A stretch of 64,000 nucleotides of DNA from Halorientalis salina (GTDB taxonomy: Archaea > Halobacteriota > Halobacteria > Halobacteriales > Haloarculaceae), in the NCBI RefSeq assembly GCF_005049285.1, contig NZ_SOSC01000003.1, positions 124,001-188,000 on the forward strand, written 5' to 3'. A model generated the notes under the pieces. That model did not search any database. It was not told the origin of the DNA and saw only the letters and a list, made by a program, of their open reading frames with translations. Both the position numbers and the translations under genes were made by a program. Positions 2,949 to 44,592 of the stretch are shown here, in pieces. The first letter of the stretch is position 1. Each line of letters opens with the position of its first letter.

Positions 2949-3962
2949 TCAGGGGCGGAGTCGTTCGATCAGCCGCTTGAGGTCGAACACTTTCTCGTCG
3001 TCCAGCACGGCTTTGCGGAGCAGGCCGATCAGGCCTTCCGGAGCCAGCAACACGATGCCGATGATGACGGCCCCGAAGAAGATCTCCCAGTGCTCGGTGA
3101 TGCTGGTCAGCGTGTTCGAGAAGAAGATGAACACGATGGCCCCGACGAGCGGTCCCGTGAGCGTTCCGACGCCGCCGATGATCGTCATCAGGACGACCTC
3201 ACCGGAGAGCTGCCAGAACAGGAGCGACGGGGAGATGAACACGAACAGCACGGCGTAGAGTGCGCCCGCCAGTGCGGAGAGTGCCCCGGACATGGCGAAG
3301 GCCAGCCACAGGTACGAGTTGACGTCGTAGCCGAGGTGGAGCGCGCGCTCCTCGCTCTCGCGGATCGCCTTCAGCACGCGGCCGAACGGGGAGTTGACGA
3401 TCCGGGCGATCGCCACGAACGAGAGCAGGAACAACGCACAGGCCAACGCGTAGAAGTGGAGCTCGTTGCTCATTGGAGTCAGTGGGCCGAGCGGTGCCTC
3501 GGTGGCCGGGATGGCGATCCCGTTCGACCCGCCGGTCAGCTCGTTCATCTGGAAGACGATGGCGTAGACGAGCTGTGCCAGCGCCAGCGTGATCATCGCG
3601 AAGTAGATGCCCCGGCGTCGGAGGCTCAGGTAGCCGAAGACGACGCTCAGGAGCGTCACCGCGACGACGGTGATGGGAATCGCAAGGTAGAGGCTCGACA
3701 CGAGGTGCTCTAAGGTCAGGATGACGCCGTAGGCACCCAGCCCGAAGTAGGCGGCGTGGCCGAACGACAGTTCACCGCCGAACCCGAGGATGATGTTGTA
3801 GCCCATCACGAAGATCGCCATGACGATGATGTGCGAGGCGATGAACGCGCCCATCAGGTCCGGCAAGATGGCAAGCAGCGCCAGGACGCCGAGATAGGAG
3901 AGGTTTCGCTCCCCGACCCGGTCGTAGACGGACTGGACGCGAGTGGCGATGGCCGCGATCAT
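2949..3962 (-). CDS. livM: Branched-chain amino acid-type ABC transporter permease LivM
   Basis: Integral membrane permease, 337 residues, with about nine hydrophobic segments and the LivM signature region GYNIILGFGGELSFGHAAYFGLGAYG. The EAA-like loop (residues about 215-235, AIRESEERALHLGYDV) contacts the ATPases. Start overlaps the stop of livH by 4 bp. The C-terminal tail (DDEKVFDLKRLIERLRP) is cytoplasmic and charged. Confidence 0.92.
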   Translation of the reverse strand: MIAAIATRVQSVYDRVGERNLSYLGVLALLAILPDLMGAFIASHIIVMAIFVMGYNIILGFGGELSFGHAAYFGLGAYGVILTLEHLVSSLYLAIPITVVAVTLLSVVFGYLSLRRRGIYFAMITLALAQLVYAIVFQMNELTGGSNGIAIPATEAPLGPLTPMSNELHFYALACALFLLSFVAIARIVNSPFGRVLKAIRESEERALHLGYDVNSYLWLAFAMSGALSALAGALYAVLFVFISPSLLFWQLSGEVVLMTIIGGVGTLTGPLVGAIVFIFFSNTLTSITEHWEIFFGAVIIGIVLLAPEGLIGLLRKAVLDDEKVFDLKRLIERLRP

Positions 3963-20682: not shown

Positions 20683-20696
20683 ATGGGCCCTGGCGG
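20683..20696 (-). repeat. Right att-like site inside tRNA-Met
   Basis: Partner of the copy at 19707-19720. It spans the tRNA discriminator base, the acceptor 3' strand and the start of the T-arm, the part that integrases commonly use as attB. Confidence 0.6.
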
Positions 20697-20790
20697 ATTT
20701 GAACCACCGACCGCCCGGTGTCCCACAACACTGACGCGAGTCAGCAGTTGATATGAGCCGGGTGCTCTCACCAGACTAAGCTAAGGGCCC
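20684..20790 (-). tRNA. tRNA-Met(CAT), elongator type, with 32-nt intron
   Basis: Acceptor stem GGGCCCT pairs with AGGGCCC and discriminator A; T-arm GGTGG-TTCAAAT-CCGCC. Anticodon CAT at 20753-20755. Removing 32 nt (20720-20751) after the base 3' of the anticodon restores a CCCGG/CCGGG anticodon stem, the standard archaeal bulge-helix-bulge intron position. The acceptor stem differs from initiator tRNAs, so this is elongator tRNA-Met, which is known to carry an intron in other haloarchaea. Mature length 75 nt. Confidence 0.92.
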
Positions 20791-21764: not shown

Positions 21765-21869
21765 CGCCACCGCCAGGGTTCGAACCTGGGACAACCACGT
21801 ATCTGCGGCGAACAGGGGATTCCTATTCACCGTAACAGCGTGGTGCTCTACCAACTGAGCTACGGCGGC
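21765..21869 (-). tRNA. tRNA-Asn(GTT) with 32-nt intron
   Basis: Acceptor stem GCCGCCG pairs with CGGTGGC (one G-T), discriminator G; T-arm CCAGG-TTCGAAC-CCTGG; D-arm GCTC...GAGC. Anticodon GTT at 21834-21836. Excising 32 nt (21801-21832) after position 37 restores a CCACG/CGTGG anticodon stem, giving a 73-nt tRNA. Intron position is canonical for archaeal splicing endonuclease. The gene lies 98 bp from the divergent cca gene. Confidence 0.92.
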
Positions 21870-26280: not shown

Positions 26281-26560
26281 CTGTCTGTGCATGTGGAAGG
26301 TTGCGCTCCGCTTAAGCGTTGCCGTCGCTCCTTGGACCCGCCGCCGTCCGTCGATTCCGCCGCTCGTCGCCCGTCGGTCATACCCGAGGCTGATGCGCTC
26401 TCTGATTTAAATATACGGCCCGGACGTTTCTGCGAGGCGCGCGCTGTCGCGCGACGAGCACGTGCGAGAGATGAGCATCGGAGCGAGCGAACAACGTGAG
26501 AGAGCCAGAAGCGCAGTCGGTTGGGGAGGTGTGTGGATTGCTGTGGCTGAGTTGGGAGCG

Positions 26561-26744
26561 GTTCGCGGCAGAAGCGTCCTGACGGAGTCCCCGCGAGTGA
26601 AACGAGCGGTGGCACGGTAGACCAAGCTCTGCCGGAGATTTGAACTCAGTCGCTCCCGTTCCCTGCTCAAATCTCCGTGACCGTTTCGCCGCTCACGGAG
26701 GCGAGCGACAAACGCGTCGCTCGCCGAGTTGTTCGCGGCAGAAA
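26561..26744 (-). repeat. Direct and inverted copies of the tRNA-Arg 3' end
   Basis: On the 3' side of tRNA-Arg(GCG) are: an inverted T-arm copy (26666-26677), a direct copy (26633-26647, 15 of 15, exactly 120 bp from the original at 26753-26767), and a copy of the acceptor 3' end plus flank (26561-26586 versus 26731-26756, 25 of 26). The inverted and direct copies pair as an 11-bp perfect stem (CGGAGATTTGA with TCAAATCTCCG). The rest of 26281-26744 has no gene that I can see. Confidence 0.85.
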
Positions 26745-26817
26745 CGTCCTGACGGAGATTTGAACTCCGGTCCCTGGCTCCGCAAGCCAAGAGGATAGTC
26801 CACTACCCTATCAGGAC
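26745..26817 (-). tRNA. tRNA-Arg(GCG)
   Basis: 73 nt, no intron. Acceptor GTCCTGA pairs with TCAGGAC, discriminator G; anticodon stem TTGGC/GCCAG with loop TTGCGGA, anticodon GCG reading CGC/CGU arginine codons; T-arm CGGAG-TTCAAAT-CTCCG. No encoded CCA. Confidence 0.93.
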
Positions 26818-40007: not shown

Positions 40008-40081
40008 GGGTTCGTGGTCTAGTCGGTTATGACGCGGCCTTTACAAGGCCGAGGTCGGTGGTTCGAATCCGCCCGAACCCA
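40008..40081 (+). tRNA. tRNA-Val(TAC)
   Basis: 74 nt. Acceptor GGGTTCG pairs with CGAACCC, discriminator A; anticodon stem CGGCC/GGCCG with loop TTTACAA, anticodon TAC; T-arm GGTGG-TTCGAAT-CCGCC. No intron, no encoded CCA. Confidence 0.94.
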
Positions 40082-40336
40082 TTATCCTGCCGCTCGCACT
40101 CCGCGAGCGGCGCATAGATGAAGTGAGGGCGATTCGGACCCTGGCAGTCGCGCGCAACGAAGTGAGCACGTCTGCCTTCGGTTCGAATCCGCCCGAACCC
40201 ACTGCTACGCGACGCGAACAACTCGTGAGTGCCGCGTGAAGCGTGAGTAGCGGATTCGGAGTAGCGAAACGAGTGAGCGATAGCGAGCGAGTTTCACGTG
40301 GTTCGAATCCGCCCGAATCCACTATCCTGTCGCTCG
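40082..40336 (+). repeat. Two 120-bp modules repeating the tRNA-Val 3' end
   Basis: The T-arm/acceptor segment GGTTCGAATCCGCCCGAACC of the tRNA (from 40060) recurs at 40180 (identical) and 40300 (one change), each exactly 120 bp apart. The flank after the tRNA (ttatcctgccgctcg) recurs after the last copy (ctatcctgtcgctcg). About 50 bp before each copy is an inverted T-arm-like piece (gcgattcgga at 40129, gcggattcgga at 40250). Confidence 0.88.
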
Positions 40337-41359: not shown

Positions 41360-41433
41360 GCCGCCTTAGCTCAGACTGGGAGAGCACTCGACTGAAGATC
41401 GGGCTGTCCCCGGTTCAAATCCGGGAGGCGGCA
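41360..41433 (+). tRNA. tRNA-Phe(GAA)
   Basis: 74 nt. Acceptor GCCGCCT pairs with AGGCGGC, discriminator A; anticodon stem CTCGA/TCGGG (with wobble pairs) and loop CTGAAGA, anticodon GAA; T-arm CCCGG-TTCAAAT-CCGGG. No intron. Confidence 0.93.
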
Positions 41434-41555
41434 TATTCTGCGGCGACGAACGAAGTGAGGAGACGCAGAAACGACGCCGAGCGGATTCTGAACCAGACCG
41501 GAAAGGTGCAGCGAAGCGAGCATTTCCGGGCGTGGTTCACAATCCGGGGGCGGCG
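41434..41555 (+). repeat. Module with a diverged copy of the tRNA-Phe 3' end
   Basis: GGTTCACAATCCGGGGGCGGC at 41534-41554 matches the tRNA's GGTTCAAATCCGGGAGGCGGC with one extra base and one change, about 122 bp downstream. An inverted copy (cggattctgaacc, 41482-41494) lies before it; inverted and direct copies, extended by CCGGAAA/TTTCCGG, form a long stem-loop. Confidence 0.82.
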
Positions 41556-43845: not shown

Positions 43846-44592
43846 TCAGACAGGTTCGACCGGCGTCTCCGCTCGGTAGACCATCCGCATCGGGAGCCCA
43901 GTCGCGTCCGTCGGCGGGTCCTCGGGAAGCGACCGGAGTGACCCTGGTCCGGGGCAGGCCGTGTACCCGAGCGCGACGGCGTCGAGCACGTCGTGGACGG
44001 TCACGTCGTGGCCGGCGGTCGCCTCCGCACACTCCTGGACGACGGGCGGGGCGTCGCGGTCGAACGTCGCCAGCGCGCGCATCCGCTCGGCGTAGCCGCC
44101 GGCGGTCTCGGGGTCGCGTTCGAGAGTCGTCCCCGCGAAGGCGCGGTAACAGACCTCTGGATGGGTCTCGGCGAACACGGGGCGGGCCTCGCTCACTTCC
44201 TTGAGCAGTTCGTCGACGGCGACGATGCCGTCGCTGATGGCGAAGGCATCCTCCGAGAGGCGATCACCCGTCTTCCGCTCGTTCGCCCGGTTCGCGGCCG
44301 GATAGCGGCGTTTTCGCGCGGCTTCGCGAACGGGTGCGTCCGTGACGGCCGCGGCTCGGGGCCCCAGGACAGCACGGGCCGCGTCCTCGCACGGCCGCGG
44401 CGTCGTCCCGCTCTCGACGAGCCCGATGGGAACGTCGACCAGGATCAGTTCGGCGATCTCCTCGTAGCGGGCCCAGACCTCGCCGACGCCCGCGAACACG
44501 TCGGCGTGATCGAACCCGTCGGCGTCGAAGACGGCAGCCAGCCAGTGCTCGCCGCCATAGGTCACGCCCACGAACAGCGGGTCGTCGGTCAT
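43846..44592 (-). CDS. DUF429 family protein (predicted RNase H-like nuclease)
   Basis: 248 residues. N-terminal FVGVTYGGEHWLAAVFDADGFD and ILVDVPIGLVESGTTPRPCEDAARAVLG with the DxPIGL motif; AETHPEVCYRAFAG later. DUF429 is predicted to have an RNase H-like fold. Real activity is unproven. Start at 44592 (MTDDPLFVGV) rather than upstream, where residues are basic and unlike the family. Confidence 0.85.
   Translation of the reverse strand: MTDDPLFVGVTYGGEHWLAAVFDADGFDHADVFAGVGEVWARYEEIAELILVDVPIGLVESGTTPRPCEDAARAVLGPRAAAVTDAPVREAARKRRYPAANRANERKTGDRLSEDAFAISDGIVAVDELLKEVSEARPVFAETHPEVCYRAFAGTTLERDPETAGGYAERMRALATFDRDAPPVVQECAEATAGHDVTVHDVLDAVALGYTACPGPGSLRSLPEDPPTDATGLPMRMVYRAETPVEPV

Follow-up and report, generated by a model that had tools for sequence, protein, structure and literature searches.

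Short gene-free units with inverted and direct copies of the tRNA 3′ end lie in tandem behind tRNA genes of Halobacteriales and may be mobile cassettes

Why should a tRNA gene be followed by an inverted, and then a direct, copy of its own T-arm? This arrangement lies behind the tRNA-Arg(GCG) gene in the window, the 64,000-nucleotide stretch of the Halorientalis salina genome analysed here. An earlier note on this DNA had described a 15-base direct copy at 120 bp, and the match proves longer: 18 of 19 positions are identical (26629–26647 against 26749–26767; 15 nt perfect, 120 nt from start to start). The inverted copy complements the gene perfectly over 12 nt and makes, with the direct copy, the 11-bp perfect stem that the note had reported. 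The copy of acceptor end and flank placed at 170 bp also exists, with 91% identity over 32 nt (26556–26587). It is a separate thing, comprising the tail of a second kind of unit, here called type B, and the start of a second flank hairpin (Table 1).

Table 1. Features of the tRNA-Arg(GCG), tRNA-Val(TAC) and tRNA-Phe(GAA) loci in the window
Feature	Position	Strand	Basis and details
tRNA-Arg(GCG) gene	26745..26817	-	ARAGORN and Rfam RF00005; last 21 nt (G53–N73) = 26745–26765
Arg(GCG) type A unit, first part: flank hairpin region	26679..26744	-	Stem 26700–26709 / 26716–26725, found as inverted repeat
Arg(GCG) inverted arm	26667..26678	-	ACGGAGATTTGA on the tRNA-sense strand; inverted repeats; complements tRNA positions 55–66 perfectly
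Arg(GCG) spacer hairpin, between both arms	26646..26666	-	Fold and unit dissection
Arg(GCG) direct copy of tRNA 3′ end, from G53	26625..26645	-	Intact until about position 65, decayed beyond
Arg(GCG) type B unit, partly decayed	26575..26624	-	Hairpin, then direct acceptor-end copy (tRNA positions 61–73 at 26575–26587); direct repeat
Arg(GCG) second flank hairpin, start	26556..26574	-	CTTCTGCCGCGAAC...; repeats the sequence directly 3′ of the tRNA gene itself
tRNA-Val(TAC) gene	40008..40081	+	ARAGORN, Rfam
Val(TAC) type A unit 1	40082..40201	+	Inverted arm 40127–40139; direct copy 40181–40201 (21/21)
Val(TAC) type A unit 2	40202..40321	+	Inverted arm 40250–40258; direct copy 40301–40321 (20/21)
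tRNA-Phe(GAA) gene	41360..41433	+	ARAGORN, Rfam
Phe(GAA) type A unit	41434..41555	+	Inverted arm 41475–41493; direct copy 41535–41555, extra C in the T-loop

The copies at tRNA-Arg(GCG) did not arise by chance, an origin ruled out by a resampling null, by the ranking of the source tRNA and by the clade distribution described below. In 300 first-order Markov resamplings of the flank the score averages 5.1 (SD 1.4, maximum 11); the real direct copy reaches 13, and its own tRNA ranks first against the flanks of the other 42 tRNAs in the genome. Intact 21/21 direct copies stand at tRNA-Arg(GCG) of six relatives (G005, G015, G013, G010, G009 and G008), and intact type B units at six loci of this gene (L050, L051, L053, L054, L055 and L063), in one of which (L051) the same flank-hairpin repeat is placed after the last copy. 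Relatives also have a flank hairpin at the same position, with divergent sequence. Searched with Rfam covariance models at E up to 1, the region of the window yields the tRNA itself only; a second match overlaps the tRNA and falls below the gathering score. Separately, the sequence at 26436–26541 is a dispersed repeat with many 68–83% matches per genome in some relatives (G009, G018 and G023) and a match in a Halorussus plasmid; it is not part of the tRNA units.

The note had seen the same order of gene end, inverted copy and direct copy at tRNA-Val and tRNA-Phe. This is right, and the order is found at about 20 of the 43 tRNA genes of the genome and in nearly all Halobacteriales sampled. Three copies spaced 120 and 120 bp mark tRNA-Val; tRNA-Phe(GAA) has one unit, with the inverted copy first and the direct copy second. 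When the flanks of all 43 Rfam-detected tRNA genes of the H. salina genome were surveyed, about 20 had their own 3′ end repeated within the next 150 nt (60–150 nt downstream), mostly at 19–21 of 21 nt, and their own tRNA was the top-ranked source among all 43. No tRNA gene of this genome has such a copy within 400 nt upstream.

The prevailing unit, type A, has a constant plan in folding: a flank hairpin, an inverted arm (e.g. GGATTTGAAC), a spacer hairpin and a direct copy running from G53 to the discriminator base. The direct copy, or tail, thus comprises the last 21 nt of the tRNA (G53 to N73), and the inverted copy of tRNA positions 54–65 precedes it. Type B, which is rarer, starts with the acceptor end in inverted form, continues with a hairpin and closes with a copy of positions 61–73. 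The start of a unit directly behind the tRNA is T-rich. Measured as core plus copy, units span 80–344 nt (median 125 nt, quartiles 107–145); the emphasis that the note laid on an exact 120-bp distance therefore does not hold. Exact periodicity is rejected because unit lengths vary, and the value of 120 at tRNA-Arg(GCG) is a coincidence. Four genomes (this one, G005, G053 and G027) were surveyed fully and hold 141 units, all downstream of tRNA genes and in the same orientation; tandem counts from draft assemblies may be wrong, and G053 is a single contig.

Because the units were sought as matches to the local tRNA, a procedure biased towards matching tails, the control is a count of 97 copies defined by the hairpin alone. 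In this set, 62 match the local tail at 13 of 13 nt (positions 61–73) and 73 do so at 12 or more. Foreign tails in arrays amount to one clear case.

Several other tRNA calls lie in the window. The intron-containing tRNA-Met(CAT) and tRNA-Asn(GTT) genes (20684–20790 and 21765–21869, minus strand) are both found by Rfam and missed by ARAGORN at its default settings, and a short T-loop-like remnant lies 3′ of the former. The tRNA-Ile called by ARAGORN at 44202–44282 has no Rfam match, lies among long open reading frames and is probably false.

Relatives show how widely the units occur. The earlier note had proposed a comparison across relatives' tRNA-Arg(GCG) loci, and this excludes the outcome that no relative carries copies: in this genome and 19 relatives, 10 of the 20 loci (including this one) have type A units, across several families and with changed stems, several others have type B only, and some have integrated elements or nothing. 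A hairpin pattern, GATTTGAAC-N(25-55)-GTTCAAATC, occurs in 32 of 59 Halobacteriales genomes, in which its reversed control has no match. A degenerate form of the pattern is restricted to the clade, with matches in 39 of 43 Halobacteriales genomes versus 2 of the 203 genomes taken from the rest of the phylum. In a scan of one genome per species, among the matches listed, nearly all haloarchaeal ones lie 57–280 nt behind a tRNA gene and match its end at 17–21 of 21 nt; just one listed non-haloarchaeal match sits behind a tRNA in this way.

One bacterial array was also seen. A contig of a rumen Lachnospiraceae MAG (L105, reverse strand 3419–3605) has a tRNA-Ala(GGC) gene followed by two tandem units with inverted T-arm, hairpin and a 21/21 direct copy. 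No integrase is present on this 4.2-kb contig, and no array of the kind was found among 245 genomes of Lachnospirales.

A phage origin of the units was considered and rejected, because no unit core has a match in the phage collection and an IMG/VR scan gave no haloviral contig in which the pattern could be recognised. That scan returned six GC-rich viral contigs (L229, L242, L255, L258, L274 and L278) with near-perfect palindromes in which the 3′ end of a tRNA stands twice, in opposing orientations (TAGCGGGGCATGGATTTGAACC...GGTTCAAATCCATG), and these palindromes are perhaps folded attachment sites.

The inverted arm covaries with the local tRNA. In a set of 156 non-redundant units from 298 tRNA genes, counted without regard to relatedness, the inverted arm pairs with the direct copy at positions 55–61 in more than 90%. 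It follows the T-loop of that tRNA, with A:T at position 57 in 114 units, G:C in 34 and mixed pairs in 8. At positions 62–66 the pairing count is 283 in the 97-unit set, against 231.5 (SD 8.3) under a permutation null, with a signal that weakens from position 66 onward; in the 156 units, pairing exceeds that of shuffles at 62–65 and ends at 66. Folding of the spacer is stronger than that of its shuffled versions (-0.34 vs -0.25 kcal/mol per nt). Among wobble mismatches, G:T on the tRNA-sense strand is commoner than A:C (21/358 vs 13/734, p = 0.0006 without phylogenetic correction). The paired span 55–65, a T-loop overlap together with one T-stem arm, matches the T-loop sublocation known for tyrosine recombinases that target tRNA genes (PMC8371274). 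The earlier note hinted at an RNA structure, which the hairpins may form; the structure as such is real and covarying, yet the units behave like mobile DNA.

This behaviour is seen between two sister species, G053 and G027, whose tRNA flanks are mostly 90–99% identical and in which all tRNA genes were surveyed. Roughly one in two orthologous tRNA genes has a different unit content or number in the two species, and many others are unit-free in both; units turn over faster than the neighbouring genes. At Glu(CTC) the difference is exactly one unit with its tail, between flanks that are 93% identical, and the junction lies at the tRNA tail. Insertions or deletions of whole units, similarly exact to the end of the tRNA, separate the species at Met, Leu(TAA), Val(GAC) and Ser(TGA); at Tyr and Gly(GCC) the units stand in a different order. 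The Leu(TAA) array of G053 contains an extra segment that opens with a tRNA tail of Leu(TAG) type; its junction lies within GGTTCGAATCC and so places the exchange in the T-loop. Unit cores are shared between tRNAs, each with the local tail: cores behind Val and Leu tRNAs are up to 93% identical over 122 nt, and others are common to Arg, Lys, Gly and Thr tRNAs.

At tRNA-Arg(TCG) of G053, a 55-kb element with an integrase gene sits exactly between the tRNA and its unit and ends on the far side in a 13-nt copy of the tail. G027 has the unit directly behind this tRNA, without the element. The position of the element indicates that the tail is a live integration site. Two further observations concern these species. 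The tRNA-Arg(TCT) gene of G053 (L325) differs from that of the sister species at positions 50, 57, 64 and 65, while its array keeps most of the sister's version and so preserves the older tail; as proof of T-loop exchange by a chimeric tRNA gene this is not a clean case, since position 50 has changed too. In both species a further shared structured sequence, CCCACTTTTTCCGAGGGGCTG...CAAAAACTTGGGGAAAAAG, lies behind Gly(TCC), Leu(TAA) and Leu(CAA), after the last unit at several tRNAs.

From this record we strongly infer that the units are short (about 80–150 nt), gene-free mobile cassettes, tandemly placed behind tRNA genes of Halobacteriales. Our main reading, held tentatively at a probability of about 0.45, is that a tyrosine recombinase moves them at the folded tail; the recombinase, the recombination step and the direction and frequency of movement are inferred. 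When single-stranded, a unit would fold back on itself: the inverted copy would anneal to the direct one and so restore, within a long hairpin, a duplex version of the T-loop/T-stem site. This folded tail would be the recombination site of the unit, as attC is in integrons. A tyrosine recombinase acting in trans could swap it with an identical tail, either the 3′ end of the tRNA itself or the copy in another unit, and an exchange across the T-loop would let a unit enter or leave with the tRNA gene intact. For recombinases acting at the acceptor end, type B units would play the corresponding part. Three features speak for such an exchange, with a tyrosine recombinase as the probable agent and the hairpin as its likely substrate: the junction in the T-loop, the precise limits of the tails and the arms that fold together. 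Against this reading, a duplex DNA circle of about 100 bp is difficult to form. Arrays should also contain foreign tails if T-loop exchange were free between tRNAs, and their near absence argues against it. Homologous recombination between the 21-nt repeats could by itself give deletions, of a kind described as repeat-mediated in Haloquadratum (PMC3119063); this explains losses, not the conserved hairpin.

Genes with the Pfam domain PF00589, as listed in six genomes, include one conserved family (G000 C11:175766, G005 at 192 kb, G053 at 943 kb, G027 at 1650 kb and G029 at 1797 kb). A second family seen in the six genomes goes with integrated elements. The naming of a candidate recombinase from phyletic profiles was dropped, as six genomes gave no claimable link to array density.

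The near absence of foreign tails, together with the sense-strand bias of the wobble pairs, favours a step that duplicates the target or acts at the RNA level. One such account has the core (flank hairpin, inverted arm and spacer hairpin) entering the tRNA end by a staggered cut at 53–73, so that the tail becomes a 21-bp target repeat; in an RNA-guided version, the guide that finds tRNA genes would be the inverted arm, whose complement, the T-arm, is nearly universal. We consider this unlikely. It accounts for tails that nearly always belong to the local tRNA, for cores that move between tRNAs without tails, for an inverted arm that stops exactly at the start of the duplicated tail and for the wobble bias, and it has a precedent in casposons, which are known to make long target duplications at tRNA 3′ ends. 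The units nevertheless lack terminal inverted repeats, no transposase, reverse transcriptase or casposase has so far been tied to them, and the Leu(TAA) insert, joined at the T-loop with a foreign tail, is not expected from target duplication. The wobble bias suits RNA or the top strand and, with the strong covariation, the T-rich unit start directly behind the tRNA, the orientation that is always that of the tRNA and the presence of type A at tRNA-Arg(GCG) in several families with changed stems, it also speaks for a host feature: a structured 3′ trailer of tRNA transcripts, serving end protection, termination or folding timing, that owes its spread and its uniformity to gene conversion and unequal crossing-over and is not mobile. 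Such a trailer fits poorly with sister species that differ in unit number at about half of their orthologous tRNAs despite flanks that are 94–99% identical (many of the others being unit-free in both), with type B, which has the same architecture from another part of the tRNA, and with an identical function needed by just half of the tRNAs, and we regard it as unlikely.

Two further explanations fare worse. Large proviruses or plasmids once integrated at tRNA genes could have been deleted and left duplicates of their attachment sites as scars; tRNA 3′ ends are the usual archaeal attachment sites (PMC8371274), and integrating elements are found at the same spots as the units. Such scars would not give a tRNA-matched inverted arm, a conserved spacer hairpin or cores common to different tRNAs and families, and the phage and IMG/VR searches returned neither a unit core nor a recognisable haloviral copy of the pattern, so that we disfavour this origin as very improbable. 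Template switching in replication could repeatedly produce an inverted and then a direct copy at tRNA genes, in one step and without selection, and would make both copies tRNA-specific; the restriction of the units to one archaeal order (39/43 vs 2/203 genomes), though tRNA genes are everywhere, and the homology of cores between tRNAs make it scarcely credible.

We return to the cassettes moved at a folded tail, and set them in a wider frame. We give slightly better than even odds to the broader idea that these are replicating gene-free DNA or RNA units that use a base-paired copy of the T-arm as their address, so that one family can colonise every tRNA gene harmlessly, with movement either through a tyrosine recombinase that acts on folded hairpins or through guide pairing and tail duplication. 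Transfer RNA genes are classic landing sites of mobile DNA. Here, in a whole archaeal order, as many as half of them are followed by tandem gene-free units built from the end of their own tRNA in both orientations. Should the recombination reading be true, the arrays follow the logic of integrons with neither genes nor a fixed platform; should the guide reading be true, they reveal a new way of finding tRNA genes. On either reading, the arrays offer a natural record of recombination at tRNA loci and a testable substrate for archaeal recombinases. They also call for care in annotating haloarchaeal tRNA flanks, where tail copies may be taken as provirus boundaries. We found no description of such arrays in the open-access literature, although an earlier one may exist.

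Several known systems share parts of this design. In CTX-phi, two inverted copies of an attachment site fold into one functional duplex site, as proposed for the units; there the folded single-stranded site is dif, the recombinase XerCD and the cargo a phage genome, whereas the units have tRNA tails and no cargo. A 21-nt target duplication at a tRNA would fit casposons. REP/BIME and MITE sequences are likewise short, non-coding, palindromic, present in many copies and probably moved in trans, but the units have no terminal inverted repeats or constant ends, their sites are tRNA 3′ ends alone and their tails are tRNA-specific. Elements and proviruses that target tRNA genes (SSV, pT26-2, SNJ2-like) also leave the tRNA 3′ end duplicated at their far boundary, and the unit boundaries at the T-loop or acceptor end agree with the sublocations known for them. 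The units differ in having about 100 nt between tail copies, with neither integrase nor cargo, and in standing in tandem behind half of all tRNA genes with an inverted arm.

The closest likeness is to integrons, whose attC arrays are bacterial and have also been reported in some archaeal genomes. Integron cassettes, like the units, lie in tandem and in one orientation behind a fixed site, reorder, and each end in an imperfect hairpin, the outer arms of which repeat the recombination core in inverted form. In both, an inner spacer is left unpaired before a second stem and the boundary takes the form G^TT; the integron hallmark of R''/R' arms, unpaired spacer and inner stem is found in the units. 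Unlike integron cassettes, the units carry no genes, no integron integrase has so far been recognised next to them, their arrays stand at dozens of tRNA loci, and their arms are copied from the local tRNA and so vary between loci. Integrons fold the bottom strand, whereas the wobble bias of the units, tested with relatedness ignored, may point to the sense strand. Integron cassettes, tRNA-integrated elements and MITE/REP sequences each have at least one defining property that the units lack; we therefore rate the units as a new kind, one that may nonetheless work like integron cassettes.
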